64,000 nt of DNA from Cobetia sp. L2A1 (lineage in GTDB: Bacteria > Pseudomonadota > Gammaproteobacteria > Pseudomonadales > Halomonadaceae). Of the stretch, positions 2,872 through 19,742 are shown in pieces. How positions within the stretch are numbered: position 1 is the first letter of the stretch; each line of letters starts with the position of its first letter. The DNA lies in contig NZ_CP047025.1 of assembly GCF_009796845.1 (NCBI RefSeq), forward strand, positions 2,418,001-2,482,000. The letters run 5' to 3'. A model generated the notes under the pieces. It did no database searches. It was not told the origin of the DNA and saw nothing but the letters and a program-made list of their open reading frames with translations. The position numbers and the translations under genes were made by a program.

Positions 2872-3852
2872 ATGACAACGACACCGTCTCCCCTATCATC
2901 TCCACTACGGTCAGCCATCCGCTGCCATGACTTCATCGAGACCTTTTCTCTCGGCCTGGAGGACATGGTCACGCTTGAGATACCGCAGGCGCGTCTGTGC
3001 TATGAAAAGCTGTGCCAGAAAATCGGTGCCCCTCTGCCCGCCGGCATGACATCACACGATGAAATGCTGTCAGTCGCGGACCGGGAGTCTCCTCTTCGAT
3101 TGCGCCACCTCTGCCCGGCGGGATGCCAGAATGCCTCGTTGGCTCCCGTCGTCTACCTGCACGGCGGTGCCTGGCAGATAGGCTCGGTGGAGACCCACCA
3201 GGGAGTCGCTGCCAGTCTGGCGAATCATCTCGGACGCGTCGTGGTCAGCGTCGATTACCGGCTGTTGCCCGACGTCAGTTACCGCGACCTGCTGGAGGAT
3301 TGCCTGGTCGCCGTTCGCCACCTGTCGCAGACACAGCCTCCGGCAGCTCTGGTCGGGGACAGCGCTGGAGCGCGACTGGTGATGGATGTCACCCGAGTGC
3401 TCTCGGCAGAATCCTCACCCGCACCATCTCCTTACCATGCCGAGACAGTGCTTGGCCTGGTCTATCCGCCACTTGATCCCGTCTTGTCGCTGGACGCTGA
3501 TGATGAGCGCACGCTAGGCCCCACTGCGCCCCTCCTCAGTCGTGAGGAGATCGTCAGCATGTGGCAGGTCGTGGTCGAGGGTGATGCGTCAGGCAGCTAT
3601 GCGCCCTCACCAGCCCACTCACGCTTCGCCCCTGCAAAGCGCATCGAAGTCTTGAGTGTCGAACACGACCCCCTCACCGCTCCACTAGAGGCTGCGATCG
3701 CGACATGGCAGGCGCAAGGGGCTGATATTGGCTATCGCTGTGCGCCGGGCATGGTGCATGCCGCGCTTCATGCACATCATGTGCTACCGGAGATGGGCGT
3801 CGCCTGGCGCGATTTCTGCGGCGCATTGAAGGGTCGCATTGACGACGCATGA
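2872..3852 (+). CDS. Alpha/beta hydrolase, probable short-chain acylcarnitine hydrolase
   Basis: This 326-residue hydrolase is of the hormone-sensitive-lipase-like (alpha/beta hydrolase fold 3) type. The oxyanion motif YLHGGAW lies near residue 95 and the nucleophile motif GDSAG near 163. An Asp in EHDPLT and a His in GMVHAALH complete a triad near the C-terminus. I chose the ATG at 2872; an in-frame upstream ATG at 2674 would run through the preceding gene. In P. aeruginosa the last gene of the order cdhC-cdhA-cdhB-X is HocS (PA5384), an L-specific hydrolase of acetyl- and butyrylcarnitine. The identical position suggests the same role. Function is inferred from context. Confidence 0.7.
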   Translation: MTTTPSPLSSPLRSAIRCHDFIETFSLGLEDMVTLEIPQARLCYEKLCQKIGAPLPAGMTSHDEMLSVADRESPLRLRHLCPAGCQNASLAPVVYLHGGAWQIGSVETHQGVAASLANHLGRVVVSVDYRLLPDVSYRDLLEDCLVAVRHLSQTQPPAALVGDSAGARLVMDVTRVLSAESSPAPSPYHAETVLGLVYPPLDPVLSLDADDERTLGPTAPLLSREEIVSMWQVVVEGDASGSYAPSPAHSRFAPAKRIEVLSVEHDPLTAPLEAAIATWQAQGADIGYRCAPGMVHAALHAHHVLPEMGVAWRDFCGALKGRIDDA

Positions 3853-3943
3853 GGCTGACTCTCCTGCACGTCAGCGCGTGACGCTTGATCGCGCAGCGCT
3901 ATCTGCATTGCACCCAAGAAAATCGTATTCAAGAGAATCTGGC

Positions 3944-4852
3944 TCAAGACACTCGTACCTCGTCGCACTGCACCTCATCGCGGCGCAGTACCCGCAGCTC
4001 CACATCCGCGGGACACTGTGAAACAAGAGACTGCCAGCGGGCCTGCAATTGGCCCCGCAGCTCAGCGTCGCCGTAGATCACGACCACGACCACCAGTCGG
4101 AAGTTGTCATCCATCGCCCGTTCCGCGATGAGGGCTTCGTAAAGAATACTGTCAAGCACACGCTCAGCCTTGGCGTGATGTTTCAGCACTCTGACATCAA
4201 CAAAGGTATTCACGGATGCCTGACCAACAAACACCGCATCGAAGCATGCCCGTGTATCACCTACCTGGATATCGTGGCGAACCTCACTGGCCTGCTTTGC
4301 GCCAGACTCGCGTGCAATCTGACGCACCAGAGCCGTTTTCACTGCGCGTAGCTCGTGGCGATGCTCTCGCGTCATCTTCTCGCGCGCCACCTCATGTGAT
4401 GCCATCTCCCCACTGGATGGTGACGCCATCGGCGTGTCGTTATTGCCGCCGTGAAGCAGTTGCGCCACGTCAGCATCATCCACGGAGATCTGGGCATCCT
4501 CTGCCTTCCTCTCATCGCCATCCTCCTCGCCCAGTGAGTCCCGCACCTCAGCGGTCAGACGCGCCTCTTGTTCGCTGGGCGACAGGGTACGCATGAAGGA
4601 GCGGTCCTTATGGTAATCGCCAGGCGCATAGAGTTTGCCGTGATGATGGGTGACAAGACGATAGAAAACGCCCAGCACCAATAGCGGAAAGATAACGATG
4701 AAGGCGATCAGCGGCCAACGCTCAGCCTCTGTCAGCTTGTCGGCGGATGAATTCAACAACAGACTCGCGAATCCATAGATCAGCGAGATGAACAGCGCGA
4801 TGATACCGAGTGGATTGCGCGCCAACTCCTTGGCATTTTTCATGAACTGCAT
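3944..4852 (-). CDS. Membrane-anchored protein of unknown function
   Basis: This 302-residue protein has two predicted membrane helices (about residues 15-33 and 47-65). A charged, Ala/Glu/Asp-rich linker follows, then a compact alpha/beta C-terminal domain from about residue 195. The ATG at 4852 has GGAG five bases upstream. In the C-terminal domain, FDAVF is followed by a VDVRVLK strand, and a later RLVVVVVIYG strand is strongly hydrophobic. The first pair vaguely recalls the D...(D/E)xK pattern of restriction-endonuclease-like folds, but this is only a suggestion. No family was recognised. It converges with the hydrolase and stands alone on its strand. Confidence 0.7.
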   Translation of the reverse strand: MQFMKNAKELARNPLGIIALFISLIYGFASLLLNSSADKLTEAERWPLIAFIVIFPLLVLGVFYRLVTHHHGKLYAPGDYHKDRSFMRTLSPSEQEARLTAEVRDSLGEEDGDERKAEDAQISVDDADVAQLLHGGNNDTPMASPSSGEMASHEVAREKMTREHRHELRAVKTALVRQIARESGAKQASEVRHDIQVGDTRACFDAVFVGQASVNTFVDVRVLKHHAKAERVLDSILYEALIAERAMDDNFRLVVVVVIYGDAELRGQLQARWQSLVSQCPADVELRVLRRDEVQCDEVRVS

Positions 4853-5119
4853 AACTGCTCCATTCCCTTGGCCTGTTACTGGCTATGGGGCGCGGGCAGC
4901 CACATTGCAATGCCAACCCAGAGGCTTTGCCCTCCACACAACCCTTCGCCGCTGACCATCACTTGCGCCTGCTTCCTGCATATCGTTTGCACAATGACGA
5001 TATATACTCGATGAGCATTTTCTTATTACGATATTGGCCGAGCATTCTGTACATCATCGGCCAGTACTTAGGTGGCGACCTCCCCAACGCCCCTGACCAA
5101 CCGCAAGGATTGACACTAC

Positions 5120-5671
5120 ATGACAGGCAAGAAGCTCAACTGCCAGATCATTTTCTGGGCCACCTTGATCGGCGGCTTCGTCAGCTCGCTGATCAAGTCC
5201 GGCACCGAATCCAACATGCCGCCGCGTGTCAGCGGTGAAGCTTCTCCGCCGGCGATTCACATCGACTCCTGGCTGGGCGGCCTGGGAATCAACTCCCACT
5301 CCATGGACTACGTCTATCAAGGCATCACCATCCCGGGTGCCGTGATGCTGTATCACTGGCTGTTCAGCTTTGCTTTCGCCTTCCTGTATGTCGCCTTGTC
5401 AGCCTACTGGCCGAAAGTGCGTGCCGGTTATGGTGCGGTGTATGGCCTGTTGATCACCTTCGTCATGCATGGCTTCCTGATTCCGGCCCTCGGCTTCCGC
5501 AACCCGGCCTACCTTGGCGGTGAAACGACTGGCTGGCTGTGGAACCTCAACGGCTATGAACTGTGGAGTGAAACCCTCGGCCACGTCTGCTGGTCCATGT
5601 CGATCGAAGTCTGCCTTATCGCCGTGCTGGCGCACTTCTCCAAGCCCATCAAAGGCGCCTGGAGCAAGTAA
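5120..5671 (+). CDS. YagU-like inner membrane protein (DUF1440)
   Basis: This 183-residue protein has about four hydrophobic helices and resembles the YagU/DUF1440 family. Features include an N-terminal ATLIGGFVSSLIKSG helix, then NMPPR and a conserved proline-rich loop, then further helices around residues 72-95, 103-122 and 152-170. YagU is reported as an inner membrane protein linked to acid resistance in E. coli; the biochemical role is unknown. An AAGGA-type ribosome binding site lies about ten bases before the ATG. It ends at a strong bidirectional terminator shared with the convergent gene. Confidence 0.75.
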   Translation: MTGKKLNCQIIFWATLIGGFVSSLIKSGTESNMPPRVSGEASPPAIHIDSWLGGLGINSHSMDYVYQGITIPGAVMLYHWLFSFAFAFLYVALSAYWPKVRAGYGAVYGLLITFVMHGFLIPALGFRNPAYLGGETTGWLWNLNGYELWSETLGHVCWSMSIEVCLIAVLAHFSKPIKGAWSK

Positions 5672-5702
5672 CTTCCCGCTCCATCTCTCAGATGAGCGCA
5701 AT

Positions 5703-5738
5703 AAAAAGGCGCCCCTGCTTTCGCAGGGGCGCCTTTTT
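5703..5738. terminator. Bidirectional Rho-independent terminator
   Basis: Perfect 16-base arms AAAAAGGCGCCCCTGC (5703-5718) and GCAGGGGCGCCTTTTT (5723-5738) enclose the tetraloop TTTC. A-run and T-run flanks allow termination in both directions, between the YagU-like gene and the convergent exported-protein gene. Confidence 0.95.
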
Positions 5739-5761
5739 ATTGTTACAACGGCACGCGCAGA

Positions 5762-6460
5762 TCAGCCTTCGATAGTCATGCGGCACAGCAGCGTGTTGTC
5801 CTGCTTGAGGCTTTCCCCCCAGACGAACTTGGCGTTGTCGTCCCAGTCGATATCGTCATAGCCATCTTTCGGGCTGACGTCGCTGGCAGCGTGTTCAATG
5901 GCAGCCGGCCAGTCGCTATCGTCGAAGTCCGGGGCGGTCCAATCACCATCAACCGTAGTTTCCTCGAAGGCACAAGCACCCTCACCCGCTTGTGGGTCAC
6001 TTTCGTCTTCGCAGGAAGTCTTCACCGGTGCGTGATGTACCACGAGGCAATGCATGTCGCTGTTGGTAACACCGATGACGTCACCTGTCTTTGCATCACG
6101 GAACTGGGCAATCATGCCGCCATCACCCATCTGCTGACGATCGGTGCCGATATATTCAAGGCCTGAGTCATTCTCCTTGAAGTCCTTGGCCTTGATGGCA
6201 ATCGTCACCGGGAATTGCGTCTCGATGATGGCGGTTTCTGAATTGAAAGAGCGCTCAGTGGTGATCGGCACGCTGTCTTGCATCGCCTTCTCGCCATTGA
6301 CGTACATTTCAAACCAGTTATCGACCCAGACCTCGGCCTTGAGTCTGGTACCGCTCTGAGGCCCGGCCTTGGGCTTTGCTGCATGCTCATCCTTGGCGTG
6401 TGAATCGGCAAAGGCAGGTGCAGCAGCCAAAATGAGGGCAGCGGTCAGTAATGTGCGCAT
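5762..6460 (-). CDS. Exported protein with jelly-roll-like features, unknown function
   Basis: This 232-residue protein has a clear signal peptide (MRTLLTAALILAAAPAFA, cleavage before DSHAKDEH). The mature part contains WVDNWFEMYVNG near residues 46-57, and FDDSDWPAA near 180. That pairing recalls galactose-binding-like jelly-roll domains. Six or so cysteines suggest disulfides in the periplasm. A good ribosome binding site (AAAGGA) precedes the ATG. It is the last gene of the minus-strand block that also holds the YHYH proteins, so it is probably part of that system. Function unknown. Confidence 0.75.
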   Translation of the reverse strand: MRTLLTAALILAAAPAFADSHAKDEHAAKPKAGPQSGTRLKAEVWVDNWFEMYVNGEKAMQDSVPITTERSFNSETAIIETQFPVTIAIKAKDFKENDSGLEYIGTDRQQMGDGGMIAQFRDAKTGDVIGVTNSDMHCLVVHHAPVKTSCEDESDPQAGEGACAFEETTVDGDWTAPDFDDSDWPAAIEHAASDVSPKDGYDDIDWDDNAKFVWGESLKQDNTLLCRMTIEG

Positions 6461-6532
6461 GAGGATTCCTTTCGTGGTGAATAGTGATCGGTCTTCTTGG
6501 CTTGCAGGGGCTGTCTTGCGTCCATCATCTGC

Positions 6533-7171
6533 TCAGTTGCGGAAGGTGATGGAGGATGAATCAATGACCTTCCCCTTGAGCGCCTCGGTCATCGTCTCCC
6601 AGTTCACGCTCATGTCGTCATGATCCGGCAACGAATCCAGCGGTGCCTTCAAGGCATACAGCGTGATCGTGTATTCGTGATACGAGCCCTCAGGGCCGGG
6701 AGGTGAACAAGGCGGCGTATACCCGATACGTTTCTTGTCCTTGTCGGCGCCCTCATCCCCCAGCGACGCCGGGTTGCCGCGCGGCAAGGCGTGGGTGTCT
6801 GCCGGGAGATTCCACAGCAGCCAATACTGGCTGGGAGCGTCACGACCTTCGACGGTGCCTTTGGGATAGTGATGCATGATGAGGGCGAGGCTCTGTGTGC
6901 CGTCAGGCACATCCCCCCATGTCAGTGGGGGTGTGAGGCCATCGCCGCCGTCGCGAGTGCATTTCAGGTCATCCGGCAGCCAGCCGTCATCACTGAAGGC
7001 AGGACTGGTGAGCGTGAAGTCGCCTTGTGCCAGCGCAGGCGTGGCCATGGGCCCGGCCAGTGCCAACGTACAAAGCCCAGCGGCCATCCCACGCGCGAGA
7101 CGCGTCTGCAAGGCACTTGAGAACTTGCCCGACAAATTGCTCAATAACTTGCTCGATCCTGCAGAACTCAT
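6533..7171 (-). CDS. YbhB/YbcL-type PEBP family exported protein
   Basis: This 212-residue phosphatidylethanolamine-binding-protein family member is of the bacterial Raf-kinase-inhibitor-like type. An export signal occupies residues 1-48 (hydrophobic GMAAGLCTLALAG, then ATPALAQG). The PEBP signature follows: FTLTSPAF, TPPLTWGDVPDGTQSLALIM, then HWxLWN-like QYWLLWNLP, and YTPPCSPPG near the C-terminus. These proteins bind small anionic or phosphate groups; the ligand here is unknown. Its ATG overlaps the stop of the upstream YHYH gene by four bases, with GGGGAG in that gene as ribosome binding site, so the two are coupled. Confidence 0.85.
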   Translation of the reverse strand: MSSAGSSKLLSNLSGKFSSALQTRLARGMAAGLCTLALAGPMATPALAQGDFTLTSPAFSDDGWLPDDLKCTRDGGDGLTPPLTWGDVPDGTQSLALIMHHYPKGTVEGRDAPSQYWLLWNLPADTHALPRGNPASLGDEGADKDKKRIGYTPPCSPPGPEGSYHEYTITLYALKAPLDSLPDHDDMSVNWETMTEALKGKVIDSSSITFRN

Positions 7172-8238
7172 CGGCAGTACTCCCCTGTCTTGACGTCTCC
7201 ACCATCTGTCACGGTACGCGTTTCAAAGTCATAGCAATCGGGCGTATCGGTGGGCGTATAGCGAATGTAATAGGCTTCACCGTGATAGGTGTAATCCATG
7301 CTGCGCTTGCCGTCTGCCTGCTGGGTAAAGACGAGGTCTTCCACGCCCCCTTGCGGCGGAGTGCCGGCAGGACGCCCACGGCTATTGGCATCGCTGGTAT
7401 CGTTTGCGGCTGACAATGGCGCCACACGTGGCAAGTCCTTCTGGTCAGGCACTTTCCCCATCAGGCACTGCACGATATAGGGCGCCTTCTGCGAAGTGTG
7501 GTAGCGATAGCCAAAGGTCTTGTCCGGCTGGCCATTGCAGATATCCAGCGCTCCGTTCGCGATATGACTGCCATCTGGATTATCGTCGCCATAGATGGGA
7601 TACCCATCCAGCGCCCAACCGATGATGGGGTTGTCATCGGCATTCTTCATCTTGTCGATCATGCAGGTGGGTTTGACATGATAGTGGTAGTCATCGCCAC
7701 GCCCGGAATGCCCACCACAGGCATCCAGCTGTTTGGTGGCCAGGGTGTCATTCTTGGCCTGATAACTTGAGAGGTCATCCTGAGACATCTCTCCGCCGCC
7801 GGTGTAGTCGTAGATCGGCACGCCATTGACGGCGACACCCAGCGCAGCATCACGCGTATAGGGTGACTCCTCACTGCCGCGCATCTTGGGCTCCAGCACT
7901 ACGGGCGATGCGTAACCCTTGGCCGGCACCGGTATCTGCTCATTGGTGCCGACGATGCCGGTCATCATCTCGTGGTCCGGCCAGGTGTCCGAAGCAATCA
8001 ATGCCTTGCCATCGTGACAGCTGACCGACACCGAATCGTCAAAGCCTGCGTCCTTCACCGAGGCTTTCACGACATCACAGCGTGTCTTCTGCTTGGCCGT
8101 CAGTGATGCCGGGTCATTGGCGATAGACTGCGCAGCGTGAAATGCCAACGGCGCCAAGACCGCAGTCCCTATGCCCAATGCAATGGAACGACGCATGAAG
8201 CGTCCTCGTCCATGCGAGTTCTGATCGGTGGATGACAT
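7168..8238 (-). CDS. YHYH-domain exported protein (copy 1)
   Basis: This 356-residue exported protein has two YHYH-type blocks. The first is DACGGH followed by DDYHYH; the second is LDICNGQ followed by FGYRYH, where the second position is Arg rather than His. Between them are GVPIYDY and ALDGYPIYGDDN, typical of the family. The start at 8238 is chosen because AAAGGAGGGGAG lies just upstream and a signal sequence follows (RRSIALGIGTAVLAPLAFHAAQS). Longer in-frame starts would overlap the upstream membrane gene. The biochemical role of YHYH domains is not established; the histidines and cysteines suggest metal binding or disulfides. It is coupled to the PEBP gene. Confidence 0.85.
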   Translation of the reverse strand: MSSTDQNSHGRGRFMRRSIALGIGTAVLAPLAFHAAQSIANDPASLTAKQKTRCDVVKASVKDAGFDDSVSVSCHDGKALIASDTWPDHEMMTGIVGTNEQIPVPAKGYASPVVLEPKMRGSEESPYTRDAALGVAVNGVPIYDYTGGGEMSQDDLSSYQAKNDTLATKQLDACGGHSGRGDDYHYHVKPTCMIDKMKNADDNPIIGWALDGYPIYGDDNPDGSHIANGALDICNGQPDKTFGYRYHTSQKAPYIVQCLMGKVPDQKDLPRVAPLSAANDTSDANSRGRPAGTPPQGGVEDLVFTQQADGKRSMDYTYHGEAYYIRYTPTDTPDCYDFETRTVTDGGDVKTGEYCR

Positions 8239-8293
8239 GCTCCCCTCCTTTGAGGTCGTGGTGATGGAATCTGATCCAGACTCTTTGAAGAGA

Positions 8294-8309
8294 GCGGCCC
8301 GATGGCCGC
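8294..8309 (-). terminator. GC-rich hairpin upstream of YHYH copy 1
   Basis: GCGGCC (8294-8299) pairs with GGCCGC (8304-8309) around CGAT. On the minus strand it is followed by TCTCTTC. It may partly terminate transcripts from the two membrane genes before the YHYH gene. Confidence 0.35.
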
Positions 8310-8396
8310 CCCACGCCCAACCCTGGGCAACTTCACGTATGGCGGTTCTTGTGGTGGTTCTGGTGATAGCTCCGATGCCGGCTCGAACAGCAGGCG

Positions 8397-8945
8397 CTAC
8401 CACTGCATGACGATGAACGTCAGTGTCATCACGCCGATGGCGACCATCCAGGCACCCAGCACGCGCTGGGCGATCACGAAAGCCGCCTCTGGCAACACGC
8501 GCCCGATCAGGGCAAACACCCCCCAGCACAAGAGGATGGTGCCCAGAATCGTCCCCAGCACTCCGACAAGCAACGCGGCGGGCGTAGTCGCCACGTCATG
8601 CCCCAGAAACAGCAGCCCCACGATCAGCCCCGCCATCAATGCCGGAACACGTGCCATCGCGGCATGCCCCCAGGCTGTACGCAGCGGCAGATGGATCGAC
8701 ACCAGCAAGGCGAAGAACATCGCAAGCCCGACCACTCCCATCACTAGGTAATCCGGTGCGAACAGCGACACCGCGATACCCAGCACCATGCCATTGATCA
8801 CTCGCAGAACATGGCGCATCACCTCGCAAGCCGTGAAACGACTCTGAGTGGCAACACCGACCAGCCCTGCCGTCAGCAGCATGTAGAGAATGACGGGGCT
8901 TCCGGCGGCGGCTTGAAAGCCCAACATCAACTGATCCTGCCACAT
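8397..8945 (-). CDS. Six-helix membrane protein, partner of the HupE-like permease
   Basis: This 182-residue protein is almost entirely hydrophobic, with about six membrane helices. Motif-like pieces are LGFQAAAGSPVILYMLL at the N-terminus, HAAMARVPALMAG in the middle and a GHDVATTP loop. The ATG at 8945 begins on the last base of the HupE-like stop codon (TGATG), so translation is coupled. An in-frame GTG lies three bases further upstream. The size and helix number resemble HupE/UreJ proteins, but the hallmark HP-G-DH motif is absent. It may be a degenerate second subunit of the permease. No specific family was recognised. Confidence 0.7.
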   Translation of the reverse strand: MWQDQLMLGFQAAAGSPVILYMLLTAGLVGVATQSRFTACEVMRHVLRVINGMVLGIAVSLFAPDYLVMGVVGLAMFFALLVSIHLPLRTAWGHAAMARVPALMAGLIVGLLFLGHDVATTPAALLVGVLGTILGTILLCWGVFALIGRVLPEAAFVIAQRVLGAWMVAIGVMTLTFIVMQW

Positions 8946-9589
8946 CACGCCAGAGCCTCTATCAGGAAGTAGACGCCCAGCAAGGCCGTCACCGCGCCCA
9001 ACACTCGCAACAGCTGGCCTTGACGGAAACGCTCTGCCAGCACACCGACACCGATACCCGCGGCGTGCAACGAACCAGTCGCCAGCATGAAGCCGATGGC
9101 AAAGGCGAACGGATCAGAGGCCAACGGTAACTCCGCCCCATGGGCATAGCCATGACAGATGGCGAACACTGATACCACCAGACAAGCGATCCACAATGGC
9201 AATTTCACTCGTCCGGCAATGAAGATCCCCAGCACCAGCGCCGAGAGCGCGATACCGATCTCGATCCCCGGCAGAGGAATCCCGACAATGCCGACGACAC
9301 TGCCCAGCGCCATGATCATCGGGAAGACAACCGGCAACAGCCAGGTGGCGGGACGCCCGAGAATGACACCCCATAGCCCTACCGCTGCCATGGCGGTGAA
9401 GTGGTCCAGCCCGGTCAGCGGATGGAGGAAACCAGCCGCGAATCCGCCGACGGAATCCGTATCCACATGAGCTTCGGCCATGCGTGAAAATAGCAGTAAC
9501 AAGAAAGCCATGCTGAGTGCGCATGTACGGGCAGTGCTTGGCCGTAAACACTGGGGAAGCGTCATCATGTAGTCATCCATCGAGGTCAA
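8945..9589 (-). CDS. HupE/UreJ-family membrane permease
   Basis: This 214-residue protein carries the family hallmark HPLTGLDHFTAMAAVG near residue 57 and HAAGIGVG near residue 178. HupE/UreJ proteins are linked to nickel or cobalt uptake. A signal peptide is likely cleaved after MAEA, leaving an N-terminal His in the mature protein as in other members. The TTG at 9589 is used because GGGAGG lies seven bases upstream; an in-frame ATG at 9580 has no such site. That GGGAGG lies in the 3' arm of a terminator-like hairpin, which is unusual. No urease or hydrogenase gene is nearby; the neighbours are YHYH proteins. Confidence 0.82.
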   Translation of the reverse strand: MTSMDDYMMTLPQCLRPSTARTCALSMAFLLLLFSRMAEAHVDTDSVGGFAAGFLHPLTGLDHFTAMAAVGLWGVILGRPATWLLPVVFPMIMALGSVVGIVGIPLPGIEIGIALSALVLGIFIAGRVKLPLWIACLVVSVFAICHGYAHGAELPLASDPFAFAIGFMLATGSLHAAGIGVGVLAERFRQGQLLRVLGAVTALLGVYFLIEALA

Positions 9590-9636
9590 TAAAAAGCCTC
9601 CCCCCTATGCAGAAAAGAATGCATTGGAAGAAGGCT
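9587..9636 (-). terminator. Terminator hairpin overlapping the HupE ribosome binding site
   Basis: Read on the minus strand, AAGCCT plus a pyrimidine stretch pairs with a G-run plus AGGCTT. An inner ATGCA/TGCAT stem sits around an eight-base loop, and TTTATT follows. It ends the lectin-like gene (stop at 9650). Its 3' arm contains the GGGAGG that best fits the HupE-like start. Confidence 0.65.
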
Positions 9637-9649
9637 TGTTCATGCGAAG

Positions 9650-10309
9650 TTACTTGGCAAAGCAGTACAAGAGACCATCTCCACCGGTGCTTTTCAGCGC
9701 CGGGATATCACAGCCCTTGGTCTGGTGTGCCGAATTCCATGAGGTCGGCTGAGCGCCTCCCCCCTGGCGGTCGAAGTGTCCGACCATGACACCTTCATCA
9801 TTGCTTGAACTGGTCCAGTCCTGACAGGTGCCACCTTCGAGCTCACCTTGGGCATTGGAGGCGGTGAGGATGTCATGACGATTGGGAGTATCCCCATAGC
9901 CAGTGATGTGTTCGCCCTTCTCCGTCAAGGCGGTCGCCTGACTGACGTTGGTGGCCACGGAATGCAGTGCCTCGACATCCTTGGCGACCATCACACCCTC
10001 GGCGTTGTACCAGGGGCCGGCACCAATGCGATCACGCGCATTCTCTTCGCTGGTAGACAGGTAAGCTGCCCACTGCCTGTCACCCACCCCTGCCGACTCT
10101 GCCAGTGACTGACAATGCGCATCAGCCCCTTTGACACCGCCGAAATCACCGCCCTTGCCGGGATTGTGACTGGTGACGAAGAAGCTCATGGAAGCATCCC
10201 CTGCGGCACCCTCCGCTGCGAGCGCCTGAGCACTTGCCAGACTTGCTGCCAGCAGGCCCGCCACCAGAGCCGCCACCCATTTATCACTACCTTGCTTGAC
10301 CGACTTCAT
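9650..10309 (-). CDS. Exported lectin-like protein (DUF1554-like)
   Basis: This 219-residue exported protein has a signal peptide ending in SAQALA (start at 10309, with AGGAG eight bases upstream). The mature domain resembles the DUF1554/C-type-lectin-like fold. Visible features are FFVTSHNPGKGGDFGG, GADAHCQSLAE, a WAAYLST strand, WYNAEG, TGYG, CQDWTS and a C-terminal LLYCFAK. The four cysteines fit two disulfides. Such proteins are extracellular or periplasmic with unknown ligands. It is in the YHYH/HupE block and ends at a hairpin before the permease gene. Confidence 0.75.
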   Translation of the reverse strand: MKSVKQGSDKWVAALVAGLLAASLASAQALAAEGAAGDASMSFFVTSHNPGKGGDFGGVKGADAHCQSLAESAGVGDRQWAAYLSTSEENARDRIGAGPWYNAEGVMVAKDVEALHSVATNVSQATALTEKGEHITGYGDTPNRHDILTASNAQGELEGGTCQDWTSSSNDEGVMVGHFDRQGGGAQPTSWNSAHQTKGCDIPALKSTGGDGLLYCFAK

Positions 10310-10413
10310 CCTGAAATCTCCTGTCATCATGACTGAAGTACTGGAAATATCGCGTCTCATGCGACGCTTGCTTCACATGACTCTGCGCGACGCGACTCAT
10401 GGCCTACACGACA

Positions 10414-10439
10414 GACAGGCCACACGAAGATGGCCTGTC
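10414..10439 (-). terminator. Terminator of YHYH copy 2
   Basis: A perfect 9-bp stem, GACAGGCCA (10414-10422) with TGGCCTGTC (10431-10439), lies just past the stop codon of the minus-strand YHYH gene. The T-run after it is poor. Confidence 0.6.
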
Positions 10440-10442
10440 AGA

Positions 10443-11498
10443 TTACTGCTCGTTGGCATCACCGGATGCATCATCGCTTTCCGGACCGCCTATGGGTGCA
10501 ACACCATCCGGGCCCGGACCTGGCCCCTGGCCCGGTGCGCGTGGGGAACCGATCCCCATCTTGGCATTGGTGGTGAAGTTCTCCTTCGCCATCTCGCCTT
10601 TCAAGCACTTGGGCAGGTTGGGGAATTCTTCCGTGGCGTGATAGTGATACTCGCCTTCCGGGTGACGCTTGGTCGGGCCGAAGTGGCCATTGCAGCTGTC
10701 GAGATCCGTCGGCACTTCCCCCGTCGGATCTTCGCTGCCGAACATCGGATAACCATCGAAGGCATAAGCGAATTGAGCACTGTGGCTCTGTGGCAGCTGG
10801 CAGTTGACATCCACCTCTTCCTTGGAATAGACGGCGTCGATATCCGTTGCAGTCGCGTGCCAGTGATACCAGCCGCCGGGGTCGGTATGCCCTCCACAGG
10901 TATCCAGAGCCGGCAGATTGCCGGTATCCAGCACTGACGGCGCATCCGCGAAGATCGGGACACCATCCAGTGCCAGCCCGACCTTGGCCACGGTACCCAG
11001 TGACGTGGGCTCTTTCGCCTCCACTGGCTCCAGCGGCAACAGAATCGTCATCTCGACGCTTTCATCCGGGGAGACGTTCAGACAGTTGTTGTCGTCGACC
11101 GGCTTCTTGCTCAAGTCCGTCATGATGTGGAGTTTTTCATCCTCATCATAGAAATGGAAGCCAAGCGTATCGAGCATTTCAAAGAAGCTGCGATCCAGAC
11201 GATACAGACCCGGTCTGGTGCCATCCCAATCCCAGATGCCACCGGCATCATCCAGTGTCGGAGGGCAGAAAGGGCCTGTCTTGAGGTCGTCTGGCTTATG
11301 CTTGACGACAATCCTGGTGCATTGGGTAGTGGTGCCATTTTCAAGGGTACATTCCACTGTCTCAGGCGCCTTGACCAGCGCAGATTCAGAGAACTGTCCC
11401 GGCACGACTTCGGCGCGAGCGGCGCTGGCCAACAACAAGGAGGCAGGCAACACCGCGGCCAGCCATGCCGTCTTGCTCACAAGGGATACTGGCTTCAT
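10443..11498 (-). CDS. YHYH-domain exported protein (copy 2)
   Basis: This 351-residue exported protein has a signal peptide ending in ASAARA, with the start at 11498 and GGAG six bases upstream. An N-terminal cysteine-rich domain (VECTL, TTTQCTRIVVK, GPFCPPTLDD) matches the same region of copy 3, so the two are paralogues. Two YHYH blocks follow: LDTCGGH with GGWYHWH, and LDSCNGH with EGEYHYH. A tryptophan replaces Tyr in the first block. GLALDGVPIF and AFDGYPMFG are the usual connecting motifs. The C-terminus is a Pro/Gly-rich acidic tail. Function unknown; metal or small-molecule binding in the periplasm is plausible. It is preceded by a terminator-like leader. Confidence 0.85.
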   Translation of the reverse strand: MKPVSLVSKTAWLAAVLPASLLLASAARAEVVPGQFSESALVKAPETVECTLENGTTTQCTRIVVKHKPDDLKTGPFCPPTLDDAGGIWDWDGTRPGLYRLDRSFFEMLDTLGFHFYDEDEKLHIMTDLSKKPVDDNNCLNVSPDESVEMTILLPLEPVEAKEPTSLGTVAKVGLALDGVPIFADAPSVLDTGNLPALDTCGGHTDPGGWYHWHATATDIDAVYSKEEVDVNCQLPQSHSAQFAYAFDGYPMFGSEDPTGEVPTDLDSCNGHFGPTKRHPEGEYHYHATEEFPNLPKCLKGEMAKENFTTNAKMGIGSPRAPGQGPGPGPDGVAPIGGPESDDASGDANEQ

Positions 11499-11508
11499 GT
11501 AAGGCTCC

Positions 11509-11561
11509 AAAAAAAAGCGCCCGCAACTGATCAGTGGGGACATCATCAGTCAGACGGGCGC
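11509..11561 (-). terminator. Leader terminator just upstream of YHYH copy 2
   Basis: On the minus strand, GCGCCCG (11561-11555) pairs with CGGGCGC (11523-11517), with an inner ACTGAT/ATCAGT stem. A run of eight T follows and then directly GGAGCC, the ribosome binding site of YHYH copy 2. It would stop read-through or act as an attenuator in the leader. Confidence 0.75.
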
Positions 11562-11748
11562 AGGATATTACGTAAAAGCGTCAGTGCCGCTATCCATGAA
11601 CAGCAACACGAACATTATACCAAAACAATACACATATCTTTCAATAATCATACAGACATGCAGCAAGCAGAATCATTTCGCTGACAGGCACTGGACAGGT
11701 GCGCCATCACGGGATTCCGCCCAGGCAGTAAAAAACGGCAAGAACAGT

Positions 11749-11767
11749 AAAAAAGCACTCAGTGCTT
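11749..11767 (-). terminator. Compact terminator with the stop codon as loop
   Basis: On the minus strand AAGCAC, TGA and GTGCTT form a 6-bp hairpin whose three-base loop is the stop codon of the small exported protein. It is followed by TTTT. Termination of translation and transcription coincide. Confidence 0.6.
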
Positions 11768-12067
11768 GTCGCCCTTGGGTGCGTCATCTGGCAGGCAAGC
11801 CGTTTCACCACCCTTGGGAGGGGCGACGCACTGACCCGGCACCAGTGAATCAGCGTTCGGTACCTTGATCTGACACTGGTCACCCACCTGCTTGTCAGCA
11901 CAGGCATCAAAGGCCTCCTGCGGGGGTTTGCCATTAGGCGGCCCACCACTCGGCGGCTGTTGAGCAGCACTCATCCCGCTCACTGTCAGCAGTGCAGTCG
12001 TCATCAGGAGCATTGCTCCGACACGCGCCATCTTGGGCACGGCGGCAGACATATGAGTGAAATTCAT
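11759..12067 (-). CDS. Small exported Pro/Gly- and Cys-containing protein
   Basis: This 102-residue protein has an export signal (hydrophobic ARVGAMLLMTTALLTVSGMSAA) and a short mature part. A Pro/Gly-rich stretch (PPSGGPPNGKPPQ) is followed by four cysteines in CADKQVGDQC, GQC and TAC spacing, compatible with two disulfides. The start at 12067 has AAGGA seven bases or so upstream. It lies between two YHYH genes and shares their Pro/Gly-rich composition, so it is probably part of the same periplasmic or secreted system. No family was recognised. Confidence 0.7.
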   Translation of the reverse strand: MNFTHMSAAVPKMARVGAMLLMTTALLTVSGMSAAQQPPSGGPPNGKPPQEAFDACADKQVGDQCQIKVPNADSLVPGQCVAPPKGGETACLPDDAPKGDKH

Positions 12068-12132
12068 CGTGCTGTTCCTTGTGTTCCTGTTGATGGGCAA
12101 ATCCTGCGACTTGACTGTGCAAGCAATAAGTC

Positions 12133-12171
12133 AAAAAACAGTACGCAACGAGGTAGATACGTCACGCACTG
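12133..12171 (-). terminator. Rho-independent terminator of YHYH copy 3
   Basis: On the minus strand a 12-bp stem with three wobble pairs (CAGTGCGTGACG with CGTTGCGTACTG) is followed by TTTTTT. It lies just after the YHYH copy 3 stop. Confidence 0.75.
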
Positions 12172-12191
12172 TCGCACGCTCTGCCACGTGA

Positions 12192-13259
12192 TTACTCTGC
12201 AGCTTCGGGACGCTCCTGGCCCGGCGGCGGACCATCCGGACGCTCACCATCCTGACCCGGCGGCGGACCTGCCGGAAGCTCATCTGCCTTGCAGACAGCA
12301 TCCGCAGAGTGGAGTGCACAGCCGCTTTCTCCGTGGAAGCAACCCAGGATCGCGTTCTTCTCGGCACTGTTGCCGTGGTAGTGATAACCAATGCTCTTGG
12401 CGGTGTGACCACTGCAGGCGTCAAGGTCCGCGTCTTCCGCGTCATCGCCGGTCAGCTTGGCCAGGATCGGGTATCCGTCCATCGCGAAGCCGATCATCGG
12501 GGCGTCCGCCTCGGCCACCTTCTCTTCCGGGCTACAGCCATTGGCGCCGTGGTAGTGATAGCCGGCATGCAGGTTCACGTGACCGCCACAATCATCCAGC
12601 GGTGCCACGGTATGAGCCGCGAGAATGACATCCTGCGGGGCAGAACCATCAAAGACGACCCCATTGAACGCCACACCACGCTGGCCATGCTGATTGTCAT
12701 CTGGCTCGCCTTCCAGCGGCACCGGCACCAATGGCAGCACGTAGGTCGTTTCCGTCAGCTCATCCATGTAAGCCGGGTCACACTTCACGCAGTAGTTGTT
12801 GTATTCATCAGCCACGATTATTGCCGCCGCAGCTGCACAGGCTTCCTTGGTATCCGTGACGTTGATCTTGCCAGTCTCCTTGTCGAACAACTGCCATTCG
12901 GGGTCGTCATAGAAGGTGGCCAGATTCTCGATGAAGGCACCATCAACATCAATAGATTTGCCATCGCGCATCCAGATGCCGCCTTTATCGTCGCCATCAC
13001 CAATGTTCTCCGGGCACCAGGAGCCCATCTCGTCATGGTCCAGTGAATTCTTGAGGGTGATGCTGAAGCACTGGGTCTCGGTGCCGCCGGAAAGCGTGCA
13101 GTCCACCACCTTGGGGCCCTCAACGATGCTCTTGGCATCGAACATCGACTTGATGTGCTCCAGACGTGCCGAGACATCCATCTCATGAGCCATCGCAGAG
13201 CCGGAGGCCATCAGTCCCATTGCACTACTCAGCAACATCGTGCCTGCAAAATGCTTCAT
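12192..13259 (-). CDS. YHYH-domain exported protein (copy 3)
   Basis: This 355-residue exported protein has a signal peptide ending in ASGSAMA (start at 13259). The N-terminal domain (VDCTL, TETQCFSITLK, GSWCPENIGD, GGIW) is clearly paralogous to that of copy 2. It has two perfect motifs: DDCGGH with AGYHYHG, and LDACSGH with IGYHYHG, plus GVAFNG and AMDGYPI between them. The C-terminus is a low-complexity PPPGQ-type tail. This is the most canonical copy of the three. It is the first gene of the minus-strand block, facing the divergent DUF6152 gene across a 530-base region. Function unknown. Confidence 0.87.
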   Translation of the reverse strand: MKHFAGTMLLSSAMGLMASGSAMAHEMDVSARLEHIKSMFDAKSIVEGPKVVDCTLSGGTETQCFSITLKNSLDHDEMGSWCPENIGDGDDKGGIWMRDGKSIDVDGAFIENLATFYDDPEWQLFDKETGKINVTDTKEACAAAAAIIVADEYNNYCVKCDPAYMDELTETTYVLPLVPVPLEGEPDDNQHGQRGVAFNGVVFDGSAPQDVILAAHTVAPLDDCGGHVNLHAGYHYHGANGCSPEEKVAEADAPMIGFAMDGYPILAKLTGDDAEDADLDACSGHTAKSIGYHYHGNSAEKNAILGCFHGESGCALHSADAVCKADELPAGPPPGQDGERPDGPPPGQERPEAAE

Positions 13260-13789
13260 GTAATCATCCCTATTGCGTGATATTGGCAGATGACAAGGGT
13301 CTACATCGAGGTGATGCCGACTGTCTTGTCTAACTAATATTGTTACCGCGAGACGCAACATTCACCCATCATCCAATAAACGAAGAATCGCTGCCAGCCT
13401 AATGAAATCCCTTTCAGCATAGCAGCAATCACGGTGCCGACCCGTCGGATAACAGCGCCAAACCCCCTCCCAACAATGCAAATAAACGTCAAAAATCTCC
13501 GGGCTTTTCATGGCTGCCTCTGAGTCATCATCACCATGGCCAATGTTTGTCTTCAGTAGGCGAAATGCCATGAAAGACACCACGTATCGTGCCATCACAT
13601 TTCGTCAACATTTCCTGCACTACTTCACCGCTAGACTCGCCATCATTCATCAATATCCATACATCATCTTGTTCCTTGTCGAGATGCTAACGATGTCCTG
13701 ACCATGATCATGATCATGATCATGACGATTCAGTTTGCTTCAGAAGACGGTGCCCTTGTCTTCCTTTTTCTCAATCGGACACCCTACCC
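13260..13789. promoter_or_regulatory. Divergent promoter region of the YHYH block
   Basis: These 530 bases separate the minus-strand YHYH genes from the plus-strand DUF6152 gene. Short reading frames inside lack ribosome binding sites and family features. The most notable element is the (CATGAT)3 CATGAC repeat at 13703-13726. The region should carry promoters for both sides. Confidence 0.5.
13703..13726. repeat. CATGAT hexamer tandem repeat
   Basis: Three CATGAT units are followed by CATGAC. Each junction forms the palindrome ATGATCAT. It lies about 65 bases before the DUF6152 start and could be an operator or a slippage-prone spacer. Confidence 0.8.
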
Positions 13790-14965
13790 ATGAGATATCT
13801 CTCAGCTCAGACCGCCCTCGGCCTCTCTCTCCTCCTCACAGGCATAGCTCAGCCCGCTTGGGCGCACCACGGCGTGAATTCGGAGTTTGATGTCACCAAG
13901 GATGTCGACATTTCCGGCACCCTCTCACGCGCACGACTCGTCAACCCGCATTCCTATCTGTACATCGAATCGACGACAAATGATGACAAACCCGAGACCT
14001 GGGCGTGCGAAATGGGCTCATGGACGGCGCTCAAGCGTGATGGCTGGACCAAGGACATGTTGCAGACAGGGACTCACGTCACCGTTCACGGCCATCCCTC
14101 GCGCACAGAGGCGCTGGGGTGCGTCGTCGAGCAATTATCACTGGCAGATGGCACCCAGCTGGATACTCGCCCCGAGCATGAAACGAGCGATACAAAAAGT
14201 ACGGCAGATGAACAAGCGCAGCGGGCGACGACTCAGGACGGCACTCCCACTCTTGCTGGCAACTGGGCCGCGATACACTTCCAGCCACTCGCACCTGGGG
14301 CTGGCGGTCCTCCGGGAGAACACGGCCCGCAACTGGGGCCACGTCCGGATCACGGCATGCCACCGTCAGGCGGCATGCCGCCCGAAGGCGCGGACCGCCC
14401 AGCACAATCTCTGCCCAAGGACCTGCCCGTGACAGCTGCCGCAAAGACAGCCTCCAAGGGTTACGATCGTGATGACAACCCTCGCTTCAACTGCATGGCG
14501 ACCAATATCTTCGAAGACTGGACCTTCGATGAGATGGTCAATCATATCGAGCAGACTGCTGACACCGTTCATATTGACTACGGCTTCATGGATCTCGAAC
14601 GCACCATTTATCTGAACCAGGTAAAGCACCCGTCAGACCTCACGCCCAGTCGGGCGGGGCACTCCATCGGCCATTGGGAAAATGGCAAGCTGGTCGTGGA
14701 CACCCGCGGCTTCACGCCGGGCTATCTTCTGGCATCGCCCATGGACGGCGTCGCGCTGATGAACAGTGCACAACTGCATACCGTGGAGACATTCTGGCGG
14801 GATGAGGACGGTGTCACGCTGCATCGCAGTTACACCATCGAAGACCCGATCTATCTGACAGAGCCGCTGACAGGACAGGACGATGTCGTGGCGACCGATG
14901 ATGCCTACGAGGAGTATCACTGCGACGACCTGACCAATGCCGGCCATGTTGAGCCGCCCCACTGA
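13790..14965 (+). CDS. Exported DUF6152-type protein with C-terminal domain
   Basis: This 391-residue exported protein has a signal peptide ending in AQPAWA, followed by HHGVNSEFD, the hallmark start of DUF6152 domains. NPHSYLYIE and TWACEMGSW follow within the first 110 residues. A Pro/Gly/His-rich linker spans about residues 165-205. The second domain (about 215-385) has IEQTADTVHIDYGF, TPSRAGHSIGHWENGKLV and VETFWRDEDGV, a pattern often seen in exported proteins of unknown function. It is the first of three plus-strand genes and is followed by two membrane proteins. Role unknown; location and histidines suggest a link to the adjacent YHYH/HupE genes. Confidence 0.8.
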   Translation: MRYLSAQTALGLSLLLTGIAQPAWAHHGVNSEFDVTKDVDISGTLSRARLVNPHSYLYIESTTNDDKPETWACEMGSWTALKRDGWTKDMLQTGTHVTVHGHPSRTEALGCVVEQLSLADGTQLDTRPEHETSDTKSTADEQAQRATTQDGTPTLAGNWAAIHFQPLAPGAGGPPGEHGPQLGPRPDHGMPPSGGMPPEGADRPAQSLPKDLPVTAAAKTASKGYDRDDNPRFNCMATNIFEDWTFDEMVNHIEQTADTVHIDYGFMDLERTIYLNQVKHPSDLTPSRAGHSIGHWENGKLVVDTRGFTPGYLLASPMDGVALMNSAQLHTVETFWRDEDGVTLHRSYTIEDPIYLTEPLTGQDDVVATDDAYEEYHCDDLTNAGHVEPPH

Positions 14966-14981
14966 GGCGAGGGCTTTCCCC

Positions 14982-15440
14982 ATGGAGCTTTGGTTCGCGC
15001 TGGAAGACTCGTGGCTGGGAATGTGGGTGGCAAGCTCTGAATGGGGCTATCCCATCACGCTGTCACTGCACGTGGTGGGCATGGCGATGGTGCTGGGCAT
15101 CAGCTGGATGATCGATCTGCGCGTGCTGGGAATCAACACGGCTGCATCAATCACTGGACTGCTTCGCTATCGAGGCATCGTTCTGCTGGGGGCATTCATC
15201 AGTCTACTGACCGGTATCGGCATGTTCGCGGGGGAGGCCTCAATGGTCTACGACAACACGGCGCTGTGGGCCAAGCTGCTGGTGCTGCCCTTCGCACTGG
15301 GCACAAGCCTGTGGCTTTGGCGGCGTCTTCGCCCGGAAGCGCGTGCGATCCGACCGGCCGACAAGGGGCTGGCGCTGGTCAATCTACTGCTCTGGGGGGC
15401 CGCCATGCTGGCAGGCCGTTTGATCGGGTATTGCTCGTGA
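14982..15440 (+). CDS. DUF6644-like four-helix membrane protein (copy 1)
   Basis: This 152-residue protein has about four membrane helices. The motif YPITLSLHVVGMAMVLGI followed by MIDLRVLGI is typical of the DUF6644-like group. The start at 14982 has GAGGG upstream; a longer in-frame start would overlap the DUF6152 gene. It is adjacent to a second, related gene. The histidine in the second helix could bind haem or metal, but this is only an inference. Function unknown. Confidence 0.72.
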   Translation: MELWFALEDSWLGMWVASSEWGYPITLSLHVVGMAMVLGISWMIDLRVLGINTAASITGLLRYRGIVLLGAFISLLTGIGMFAGEASMVYDNTALWAKLLVLPFALGTSLWLWRRLRPEARAIRPADKGLALVNLLLWGAAMLAGRLIGYCS

Positions 15441-15459
15441 ACTACTTGAGGCACATCCC

Positions 15460-15972
15460 ATGACCGCGGACACCCTCGCGCTCTGGATGAAGTCCACCGC
15501 CCTGCATAGCGCCATTGTGCACTCGACCTCGGTGTGGCCAATCCTCGAGATGCTGCACTATCTCGGCCTCAGCCTGCTGTTCGGTGGGCTGATGATCATC
15601 GACCTGCGCCTGATGAGCGTGATACGTCATCTATCGTTTCGGGGGGCCAACGGCTTCATCCCCGGGGCGCTGGTCGGCTTTGCCATCAACCTGACAACTG
15701 GCGTGCTGTTCCTATTCGGGGACCCGGATCGCTATTGGGGCAATACCTCGTTTCAGATCAAGATGGCGCTGATCACCTTTGCAGGCGTGAATGCGCTGGT
15801 CTTTCGACACTATTTGAAGCCGTCGCTGATCAGCAGGGATGAGCCGCTGATCAACGACGCTAACCAGACCCCTGCCAACAAGCGTCAACTGGCCCTCCTG
15901 GCAGGCCTGCTGTCGCTGTGTGCGTGGATAGGGGTGATCGTGATGGGGCGCCTGATCCCCTACCTGGAATGA
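15460..15972 (+). CDS. DUF6644-like four-helix membrane protein (copy 2)
   Basis: This 170-residue membrane protein is related to its upstream neighbour: VWPILEMLHYLGLSLLFGG followed by MIIDLRLMSV reproduces the His-containing helix and DLRL motif. A larger polar loop lies between the last two helices. It is 19 bases after copy 1, so the two are co-transcribed and may form a heteromer. The gene ends at a strong terminator. Function unknown. Confidence 0.72.
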   Translation: MTADTLALWMKSTALHSAIVHSTSVWPILEMLHYLGLSLLFGGLMIIDLRLMSVIRHLSFRGANGFIPGALVGFAINLTTGVLFLFGDPDRYWGNTSFQIKMALITFAGVNALVFRHYLKPSLISRDEPLINDANQTPANKRQLALLAGLLSLCAWIGVIVMGRLIPYLE

Positions 15973-16012
15973 GACGCTCTGCATGTGACTGATCGTCAAT
16001 CGCTCACCACGC

Positions 16013-16043
16013 AAAAGGCCTGCCCATTGGGCAGGCCTTTTTT
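16013..16043. terminator. Bidirectional Rho-independent terminator
   Basis: AAAAGGCCTGCCC (16013-16025), ATT loop, GGGCAGGCCTTTTTT (16029-16043). It closes the DUF6152 operon and also the convergent AraC-type regulator. Confidence 0.93.
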
Positions 16044-16088
16044 GTCACGCTCATCGACGGACAACAAGAACATCGAAGGTCAACAAGG

Positions 16089-17045
16089 TCATCGCGTCTG
16101 GCGTGGCGAGTGCCCGAAGTGATTGCGATAGGCACGCGAAAAACTGGAGCTTGAGGTAAAGCCACTGGAAAGCCCCACCGAGAGGATGTCGAGATCAGTC
16201 TCCTTGAGCAGATGCCGCGCTCGCTCCAACCGCAATTTCAAATACCAGGCGCGCGGCGAGGTGGATAGTTCCTGCTCGAAGAGGCGTTGCAATTGTCTCA
16301 GCGATACCCGACAGCGCCGTGCCAATTCCTCAAGCGTCAGCGGTGTGTCCAGATGCTGTTCCATCAGCGCCACCGCATCGACCAACTGGCGTTTGTGGGT
16401 GCCAAGACGCCTGGCTAGCGTCATGCGCTGCTGATCGGTGCGTGTGCGCATGCGGTCGTGCACCAGCTGCTCGGATACGTCCACTGCCAGTGCTGTGCCA
16501 TGACGGCGTGCGATCACGTCCAGCGCCATGTCCATGGCCGCTGCCCCACCGGCACACGAAAAGCGCCGTGCGCCCAGCTCGAACAGCTCGTCTGACGTAC
16601 TGATGGTCGGAAAGCGCTCACGGAAGGCCGGCAGGCTCTCCCAGTGCAGCGTGACACGCTCACCGTCCAGCAAGCCTGCTGCTGCCAACAGGAAGCAGCC
16701 GGTATCAAGCCCGCCCAGCACACAGCCTGCCCCATCCAGGCGATTCAGCCAGCCACTCAGGGCACGGTTGAGATGGGCTTCTGGCTCAAACCCGCTACAC
16801 ACCGCCAACGACGGAAGTGAGCGAATATCGAGAATGCTGTGATCTGCCACCAATGTCATACCGCTTGATGACGTCACCGGCTGGCCATCCTCGCTGATCA
16901 ATAACCAGCGAAATAGCGTCTGGCCACTGATGCGATTGGCGATCCTCAGCGGCTCTACCGCGGCAAAGAACGCCATCATCGAAAAGCGCGGCAGCAGCAG
17001 GAATCCGATGGTTTCGGGGAGCGGTCCTGAATAATCGAGACGCAT
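16089..17045 (-). CDS. GlxA-family AraC-type regulator (GbdR/CdhR-like)
   Basis: This 318-residue transcription factor has an N-terminal DJ-1/PfpI-like ligand domain (about 10-190; IGFLLLPRFSMMAFFAAVEPLR is the typical opening) and a C-terminal AraC/XylS pair of helix-turn-helices (about 220-318; RRCRVSLRQLQRLFEQ and the closing AYRNHFGHSPR). This architecture includes GbdR and CdhR, which sense glycine betaine/dimethylglycine and carnitine in Pseudomonas. It is divergent from a BCCT carrier, and the carnitine operon is 12 kb away. It is a candidate controller of both; the exact ligand is uncertain. The leader is odd: a repeat-containing reading frame ends just before its start. Confidence 0.85.
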   Translation of the reverse strand: MRLDYSGPLPETIGFLLLPRFSMMAFFAAVEPLRIANRISGQTLFRWLLISEDGQPVTSSSGMTLVADHSILDIRSLPSLAVCSGFEPEAHLNRALSGWLNRLDGAGCVLGGLDTGCFLLAAAGLLDGERVTLHWESLPAFRERFPTISTSDELFELGARRFSCAGGAAAMDMALDVIARRHGTALAVDVSEQLVHDRMRTRTDQQRMTLARRLGTHKRQLVDAVALMEQHLDTPLTLEELARRCRVSLRQLQRLFEQELSTSPRAWYLKLRLERARHLLKETDLDILSVGLSSGFTSSSSFSRAYRNHFGHSPRQTR

Positions 17046-17049
17046 GGCG

Positions 17050-17271
17050 TCAGGGCCTCCTCATGGTGTCCAGAGTTGAGGTCGTGATGACCTGATGGAT
17101 GATAACCCGGCAAGTAATGACCTGATGGATGATGATCCGGCAATTAATGACTTGATAGACGGCGAGCTGATAGTTGGCGATCTGATGAGTGATGAAAAGC
17201 AACGTGAACCCTCGTTCGCATCTGCGCCCACTCAGACCATTCAGATAACGACTCGTGGTATTCCTATGCAC
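17050..17271 (-). CDS. Possible leader reading frame upstream of the AraC-type regulator
   Basis: This possible 73-residue reading frame runs across the 30-bp repeats. It encodes a ten-residue periodic pattern (HQVITCRVII and variants), and its TGA lies four bases before the regulator start. The AGGAGG site for the regulator is inside its last codons. It could be a coupling leader or an accident of the repeats. No homologue is recognised. Confidence 0.25.
   Translation of the reverse strand: MHRNTTSRYLNGLSGRRCERGFTLLFITHQIANYQLAVYQVINCRIIIHQVITCRVIIHQVITTSTLDTMRRP
17085..17195. repeat. Degenerate 30-bp tandem repeat (about 3.7 copies)
   Basis: Units start at 17085, 17115, 17145 and 17175. 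Each opens with a TGATGACCTGATGGATGA-like core; the first two copies are nearly identical and the later ones have drifted. The repeat occupies the leader of the regulator gene. Confidence 0.85.
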
Positions 17272-17638
17272 GACAGTAGCGAAAAAATGTCGACTAATGA
17301 AAATAAAAAGTCGCTTGAGGTTAAATTATAGCATTGCACCTTTCTAATCTGTCCATGTGCCCTCGACGTGCCGAACACATACGCAGGCTGCAATTCCGTG
17401 GTAACAGCGTTAGTTGACAATCAATTTTCCAGAATCTGTAGCCATGAAAACTTAATGTATCCATAATATATCGTAATGCTATGAATTTATTAGCATTGCG
17501 CCGAGATTTTCCGAAGCGTTCCTACACCTCATCGCGTTGCCCGATGAACAACAATAAAGGGTTGCCGATGTGCGGCTGATCCGCCTCAGTCGTTCAAGGG
17601 ATCGCTGGCCCTATGTCCAGCCTGAACAGGAGTATTGT

Positions 17639-19357: not shown

Positions 19358-19742
19358 TCCTACTGACTGATGCCATGAACACGCTGACTGATTAGTCGAT
19401 ATTGCGTCACCAATCCCTGCCAGGCCTCGCGCCTTGCGGGGATTTTTTTCATGGCTCCCTGCACGCGAACCCCGCCACTGAATGAAGCATTAGCCCTCTT
19501 CGACTAACGTCTCGATCTACAAATATTACGATGTAGCTGTCGCTTAAAGGCAATTTTATGTCGCTTCAGTTCAAAATTGCTTCTGTCGTCAAGATAGTCT
19601 TGTGTCGCTATCGCCATAGACAGGAGCCCACCATCGGTCATTTCGCTCAGCAGTCCAATACGAACGCGCGTTGCAGTGCCAAGACATCCCTGACTGAAGC
19701 TACGACAACAATCATAACGAAGACATTCACAGGAGCCACACG
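19358..19742. promoter_or_regulatory. Intergenic region between BCCT 1 and BCCT 2
   Basis: After the first transporter there is a terminator. The rest looks like a promoter. GCAATTTT (19550-19557) and AAAATTGC (19573-19580) form a perfect 8-bp inverted repeat. TGTCGCTT occurs at 19538-19545 and 19559-19566, with TGTCGCTA at 19603-19610. No gene was found. Confidence 0.5.
19411..19449 (+). terminator. Rho-independent terminator of BCCT 1
   Basis: AATCCCTGC-like left arm, GCGGGGATT right arm, then TTTTTT, about 55 bases after the transporter stop. Confidence 0.65.

Follow-up and report, generated by a model that had tools for sequence, protein, structure and literature searches.

What brings three exported YHYH proteins and a HupE-type permease together in one block of genes, and what might they do there? 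The question arises from a 64,000-nucleotide stretch of the 4.12-Mb genome of the marine bacterium Cobetia sp. L2A1 (the window), where positions 5762-13361 of the minus strand hold 7.6 kb of genes with operon-like packing. Transcribed in order are genes for YHYH3, a small protein with four cysteines (four-Cys), YHYH2, a lectin-type protein, HupE, a partner of HupE with six transmembrane helices (six-TM), YHYH1, a PEBP protein and a protein that we call jelly. The core is YHYH3-four-Cys-YHYH2-HupE-six-TM, followed by YHYH1-PEBP-jelly. We see about an even chance that this block is a cell-envelope metal-handling module, with capture by the YHYH proteins and import by HupE and six-TM.

We compared the block across six Cobetia genomes. 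The order YHYH3-four-Cys-YHYH2-HupE-six-TM is syntenic in four of them: the L2A1 genome itself, G002 (across two contigs), G003 and G005. The first three also carry YHYH1-PEBP-jelly, which is missing from G005. Ratios of nonsynonymous to synonymous substitution rates (dN/dS) against congeners range from 0.06 to 0.34, and the block genes are under purifying selection. G001 and G004 have no block; in both, 62 bp of the six-TM 3' end (89-90% identical) lie directly after the GlxA gene, at 8778-8838 of locus L160 and 9036-9096 of L161, from two Cobetia species. The six-TM gene is conserved in three congeners and left as a remnant in these two. The junction is common to the two genomes, with about 95% identity around it, and we therefore attribute the loss to one deletion. 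All five congeners keep the upstream AraC/GlxA gene at 95-98% identity, and since this holds equally where the block is gone, we judged the gene to be flank rather than block. More widely, 9 of 201 genomes of the bacterial family gave a match to the YHYH family (PF14240), six of them Cobetia and three from one other genus, as did 20 of the 369 genomes of the class sample.

All three YHYH proteins are exported and matched PF14240 at 82.6, 78.9 and 56.4 bits against a cut-off of 25. YHYH1 (7168-8244, minus strand like the rest of the block; E = 4.7e-23) probably starts at 8238 or later, YHYH2 (10443-11546; 6.6e-22) likely at 11498, and YHYH3 (12192-13361; 4.9e-15) likely near 13261-13263. The dN/dS values are 0.15-0.17 for YHYH2 and 0.15-0.19 for YHYH3, which is 68-72% identical to its counterparts in three congeners. 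His204, His212, His214 and Asp248 are identical in all 36 rows of the YHYH alignment, and a D-x-C-x-G...Y-H-x-H motif occurs twice in 31 of them. The accessible part of a paper on jumbo phages predicts that YHYH is a metal-dependent hydrolase with a zinc site (PMC7824862). The three invariant histidines and one aspartate are in line with that predicted site and may correspond to it, a match assigned in the present analysis. The predicted structure of YHYH2 had a predicted local distance difference test score (pLDDT) of 87, and comparing the confident YHYH model with solved structures gave no match. In the openly licensed literature, which lacks most subscription papers, we found neither a tested function for the YHYH family nor a description of a YHYH/HupE-type block, and DUF6152 and DUF6644, searched alongside YHYH, did not occur there.

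The permease gene (8945-9589) encodes 214 amino acids and matched PF04955 (3.7e-56; 189.9 bits against a cut-off of 23) over positions 2-178 of 179. H56, D62, H63, H146, H150 and E153 are invariant in a 15-row alignment; we take the H-x5-D-H of the first helix and the HGxAHGxE-type motif to be the HupE_UreJ motifs with their presumed roles. An invariant Ala-His stands at the predicted mature N-terminus, and dN/dS is 0.10-0.11. The six-TM gene (8397-8948) shares a 4-bp stop/start overlap with the permease gene. Pfam gave no accepted match for its product, and the protein database held seven homologues, of which the two named ones are from Cobetia. The closest HupE from outside Cobetia (59%) lies in a zinc-type neighbourhood with DUF1007, a CobW GTPase and ZnuA (L057, 10036-18811).

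We scanned genome contigs with the YHYH alignment, using YHYH2 as the query, and found 444 relatives, of which the best 80 were analyzed (L063-L142). Two of these loci (L063 and L116) are from Cobetia, leaving 78 outside loci; 74 were counted, as the open reading frame (ORF) caller returned no intact YHYH frame in L097, L111, L115 and L131. More than one YHYH gene was present in 21 of the 74, and 21 had one or more of six companions: HupE_UreJ_2, DUF6702-like, jelly, PEBP, four-Cys and MbnP. Jelly, DUF6702-like and four-Cys proteins were each found in seven outside loci, PEBP and HupE_UreJ_2 in four, and MbnP in one. Other neighbors included MarR regulators (9), histidine kinases (11), response regulators (11) and di-haem peroxidase-like proteins (7, of which the Neolewinella one alone was checked by Pfam). 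Poisson estimates gave four HupE_UreJ_2 occurrences against 0.30 expected, two DUF6702 against 0.075 and five jelly against 0.18; these are biased, as they used 50 of the 78 outside loci, including all four HupE_UreJ_2 loci, and scaling the HupE_UreJ_2 expectation by hand to 78 loci brings it near 0.5. Relatives of YHYH2 and jelly also occur in 17 and 5 plasmid records, respectively. We conclude that the grouping of the block gene families is not accidental.

The neighbors include several protein types linked to metals. Four of the 78 outside loci have YHYH immediately followed by a HupE_UreJ_2 protein with an N-terminal histidine (an Anaerolineae metagenome-assembled genome (MAG), Salinibacterium, an Acidimicrobiaceae MAG and a Microthrixaceae MAG, representing Actinobacteria and Chloroflexi). 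The seven DUF6702-like neighbors have varied support, L114 being above the PF20420 cut-off, L065 below it and L118 found through a cluster profile only. A cluster in Neolewinella (L139, 7648-15216) encodes an extracytoplasmic function (ECF) sigma factor, MbnP (1.8e-39), YHYH, a DUF6702-like protein, YHYH, CCP_MauG and YHYH. Zhongshania has an ECF sigma factor, Metal_resist, YHYH, a protein with histidine as its first mature residue, YHYH and a four-Cys protein that also begins with histidine. On an Antarctobacter plasmid a di-haem oxidoreductase adjoins YHYH. Small exported EF-hand proteins were seen near YHYH in Formosa and Zhongshania (L114, 1042-1326 and 7137-7478; L118, 8073-8480).

We then asked how often histidine is the first residue of the mature protein, relying on a home-made signal-peptide predictor. 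It was found in 10 of 44 YHYH proteins and 9 of 17 companions, compared with 2 of 215 other predicted signal-peptide proteins from the same loci. The excess held at five thresholds (weakest P = 0.002), although the P values are optimistic because the YHYH rows are related. Under stricter settings, 7 of 31 YHYH proteins and 9 of 148 others had the residue, and eight of those nine were companions. By eye, a small residue followed by histidine stands at the end of the signal peptide in 28 of 97 family members. In the L2A1 block, HupE and YHYH3 have a predicted N-terminal histidine; the YHYH3 signal peptide ends in SAMA, and the mature protein would begin with HEMD.

Gene fusions are the strongest sign of shared function. 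PEBP, YHYH1 and jelly form a single open frame in Leucothrix arctica (780 amino acids) and Marinomonas colpomeniae (729 amino acids), and Neptunomonas antarctica has a jelly-YHYH fusion followed by PEBP. Small exported proteins with an N-terminal histidine and no Pfam family follow both PEBP-YHYH-jelly fusions (L175, 967-1485, minus strand; L182, 2116-2643, plus strand). In the L2A1 block the PEBP/YbhB-like exported protein (6533-7171; PF01161, 1.4e-19, 71.2 bits against a cut-off of 24) overlaps YHYH1 by 4 bp, and the exported jelly protein (5762-6460) is a CBM67-like beta-sandwich. Searching 49 genomes for jelly gave 39 matches in 33 genomes. Among the best 20 loci, a YHYH frame lay within 1.5 kb in 16, it was of the YHYH1 type (E < 1e-100) in 11, and PEBP was present in 8. 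The YHYH1-PEBP-jelly triad occurs in Alpha- and Gammaproteobacteria, jelly accompanies another type of YHYH in Actinobacteria, Chloroflexi and an acidobacterial MAG, and a Loktanella plasmid has the order YHYH-YbhB/YbcL-jelly-YHYH. A test for the CBM67 beta-sandwich fold was positive for jelly. The accessible part of one report describes CBM67 as a calcium-dependent rhamnose-binding module (PMC4690510). Jelly resembles the CBM67 of an alpha-L-rhamnosidase and a Pleurotus lectin, but it is exported alone or fused to PEBP and YHYH with no catalytic domain, and its Asp-Asn stretch itself scores -1.0 bits.

The four-Cys protein (11759-12100; 113 amino acids, TTG start) is 47-64% identical in three congeners, and a Pfam search of the block proteins assigned it no family. 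Its relatives adjoin YHYH in Roseibium and Celeribacter, and in Cocleimonas a four-Cys-like part from a related family (cluster c15) is fused to YHYH. The DUF1554/LenF-like lectin-type protein (9650-10360) has a DUF1554 match below threshold. It is an optional member that is missing from the clusters of the congeners, and a 59% relative follows YHYH2-YHYH3 in Limimaricola (L115).

The nearest known system is the anglerase-HupE_UreJ_2 work published in 2025 (PMC12537917). In the part of that paper available, an anglerase is an exported N-terminal-histidine capture domain fused to a HupE_UreJ_2 (PF13795) permease, and a DUF6702 protein binds Ni2+ at 5.6 pM and Co2+ and Cu2+ with nanomolar affinity. 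Both systems pair an exported N-terminal-histidine part, proposed here to bind metal, with a HupE-type permease, and the four outside HupE_UreJ_2 loci share this arrangement. The Cobetia permease, however, belongs to PF04955 and has no fused capture or extra N-terminal domain; separate exported YHYH proteins, which do not appear in the accessible part of that paper, would fill the capture role. The DUF6702-like neighbors in 7 of 78 loci recall the DUF6702 metal sequesterase in being small and exported with an N-terminal histidine, but most are relatives of PF20420 found below threshold or through the cluster profile only, and no Cobetia block protein matched it. Similarly, MbnP and CCP_MauG in Neolewinella recall the MbnP/MbnH and CorA copper-binding proteins, but MbnP is present in one locus only and none is found in Cobetia.

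We propose that, outside the inner membrane, the exported YHYH proteins would bind a divalent transition metal, that the small cysteine protein and the PEBP/CBM67-like partners could help the complex or anchor it to the surface, and that HupE with six-TM would import the ion. The probable role of PEBP and the CBM67-like protein would be to hold the YHYH1 unit at the surface or on a glycan. The sequences show the anatomy, namely which genes are present, how they are conserved and packed, the purifying selection on them, the recurrence and fusion of the partners, and the deletion in two species; we infer metal binding, the identity of the metal, the direction of transport and physical contact between the partners. 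The first-pass annotation had suggested periplasmic metal handling and, as a check, a search for a conserved YHYH-HupE neighborhood. The former gains support from the N-terminal histidines, the DUF6702-like, MbnP and Metal_resist neighbors and the invariant YHYH residues; the latter exists in 4 of 6 Cobetia genomes and, with HupE_UreJ_2 as a different permease family, in four of the 78 loci outside the genus, but it is not the rule. The evidence links YHYH, in several phyla, to exported proteins with an N-terminal histidine, to permeases for metals and to a lectin-like partner, which gives the family a concrete, testable role; the block would also be another way, alongside that of the anglerases, in which HupE-type importers could be supplied. 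A broader form of the model, which we hold to be unlikely, is that PEBP, YHYH and the CBM67-like part, as neighbors or as one polypeptide, form a new kind of metalloprotein machine at the surface whose YHYH fold has not been described, taking metal from surface or algal polysaccharide and passing it to importers that differ between lineages (HupE, HupE_UreJ_2) or to carriers (DUF6702-like, MbnP).

Several observations weigh against metal handling. YHYH1 and YHYH2 of Cobetia have no N-terminal histidine, and 53 of the 74 counted loci had none of the six companions near YHYH, which implies that YHYH works without a permease nearby. Sensor kinases and regulators in the neighborhood of YHYH have matches below cut-off to BaeSR and other types and do not resemble a metal type. 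An Rfam scan of positions 3000-20000 gave no riboswitch or other RNA match at the gathering threshold, and four upstream regions of YHYH3 compared by eye had no conserved motif. The jelly part resembles a sugar-binding module. A rival reading, which we regard as somewhat doubtful, is a surface glycan system: YHYH would serve the cell surface as a metal-dependent hydrolase or an adhesin, PEBP-YHYH1-jelly would act on algal polysaccharide as a secreted lectin-enzyme, and HupE would be a mere neighbor in Cobetia. Against such a system, no glycoside hydrolase or lyase family was recognized in the ORFs examined beside the clusters (by eye, and in part by Pfam), and YHYH is repeatedly paired with HupE_UreJ_2, DUF6702-like, MbnP and Metal_resist proteins. 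The block could also be two independent modules that happen to adjoin, a lectin module (YHYH1-PEBP-jelly) and a metal module (YHYH3-four-Cys-YHYH2-HupE-six-TM). G005 has the second alone and many outside loci carry one module without the other, but Yoonia has YHYH2, YHYH3, jelly and YHYH1 in a row (L080) and Psychrobacter loci combine PEBP, two YHYH genes, a DUF6702-like gene and jelly; we find this separation quite improbable.

The identity of the metal bears on a further alternative. Our order of preference would be nickel, then cobalt, copper and zinc, and nickel is slightly favored on genomic grounds. The ureC gene is present in exactly those four of the six Cobetia genomes that carry the block (agreement in all six), and neither G001 nor G004 has a HupE match. 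This co-occurrence is only a hint of nickel, since it probably reflects a single event, as G001 and G004 have a common junction. It would also fit a plain nickel supply for urease, with HupE serving as an additional UreJ-like importer and the exported genes riding along as passengers. The urease cluster, however, has its own HupE (G000:C1, about 2623815-2628152; L058), and purifying selection acts on the exported genes, which recur elsewhere with other permeases, so we consider this explanation very improbable.

Genes beside the block were judged to lie outside the system. The first-pass annotation had extended the envelope block over 10 kb and counted DUF6152 and two DUF6644-like proteins among its members. 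The genes that it described do exist, but the block covers less than it claimed: neither family was found among the 80 YHYH loci, and DUF6152 is present in one of the six Cobetia genomes. DUF6152, the two DUF6644-like genes and a DUF1440 gene were rejected as block members and treated as local extras. DUF6152 and two DUF6644-like membrane genes, which are weak matches (13790-15972, plus strand), are divergent from YHYH3 and make up an insert, specific to the strain, that separates YHYH3 from GlxA. The predicted mature N-terminus of DUF6152 is His-His, and a plasmid search for it returned only six partial records of sphingomonad type. Promoter-like sites numbered 2, compared with 5.2 in shuffles, and terminator-like sites 8, compared with 7.6; these counts indicate nothing above chance. 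Genes for BCCT transporters beside the GlxA-type AraC regulator (17570-19357 of the window and beyond) flank the block in the congeners examined.

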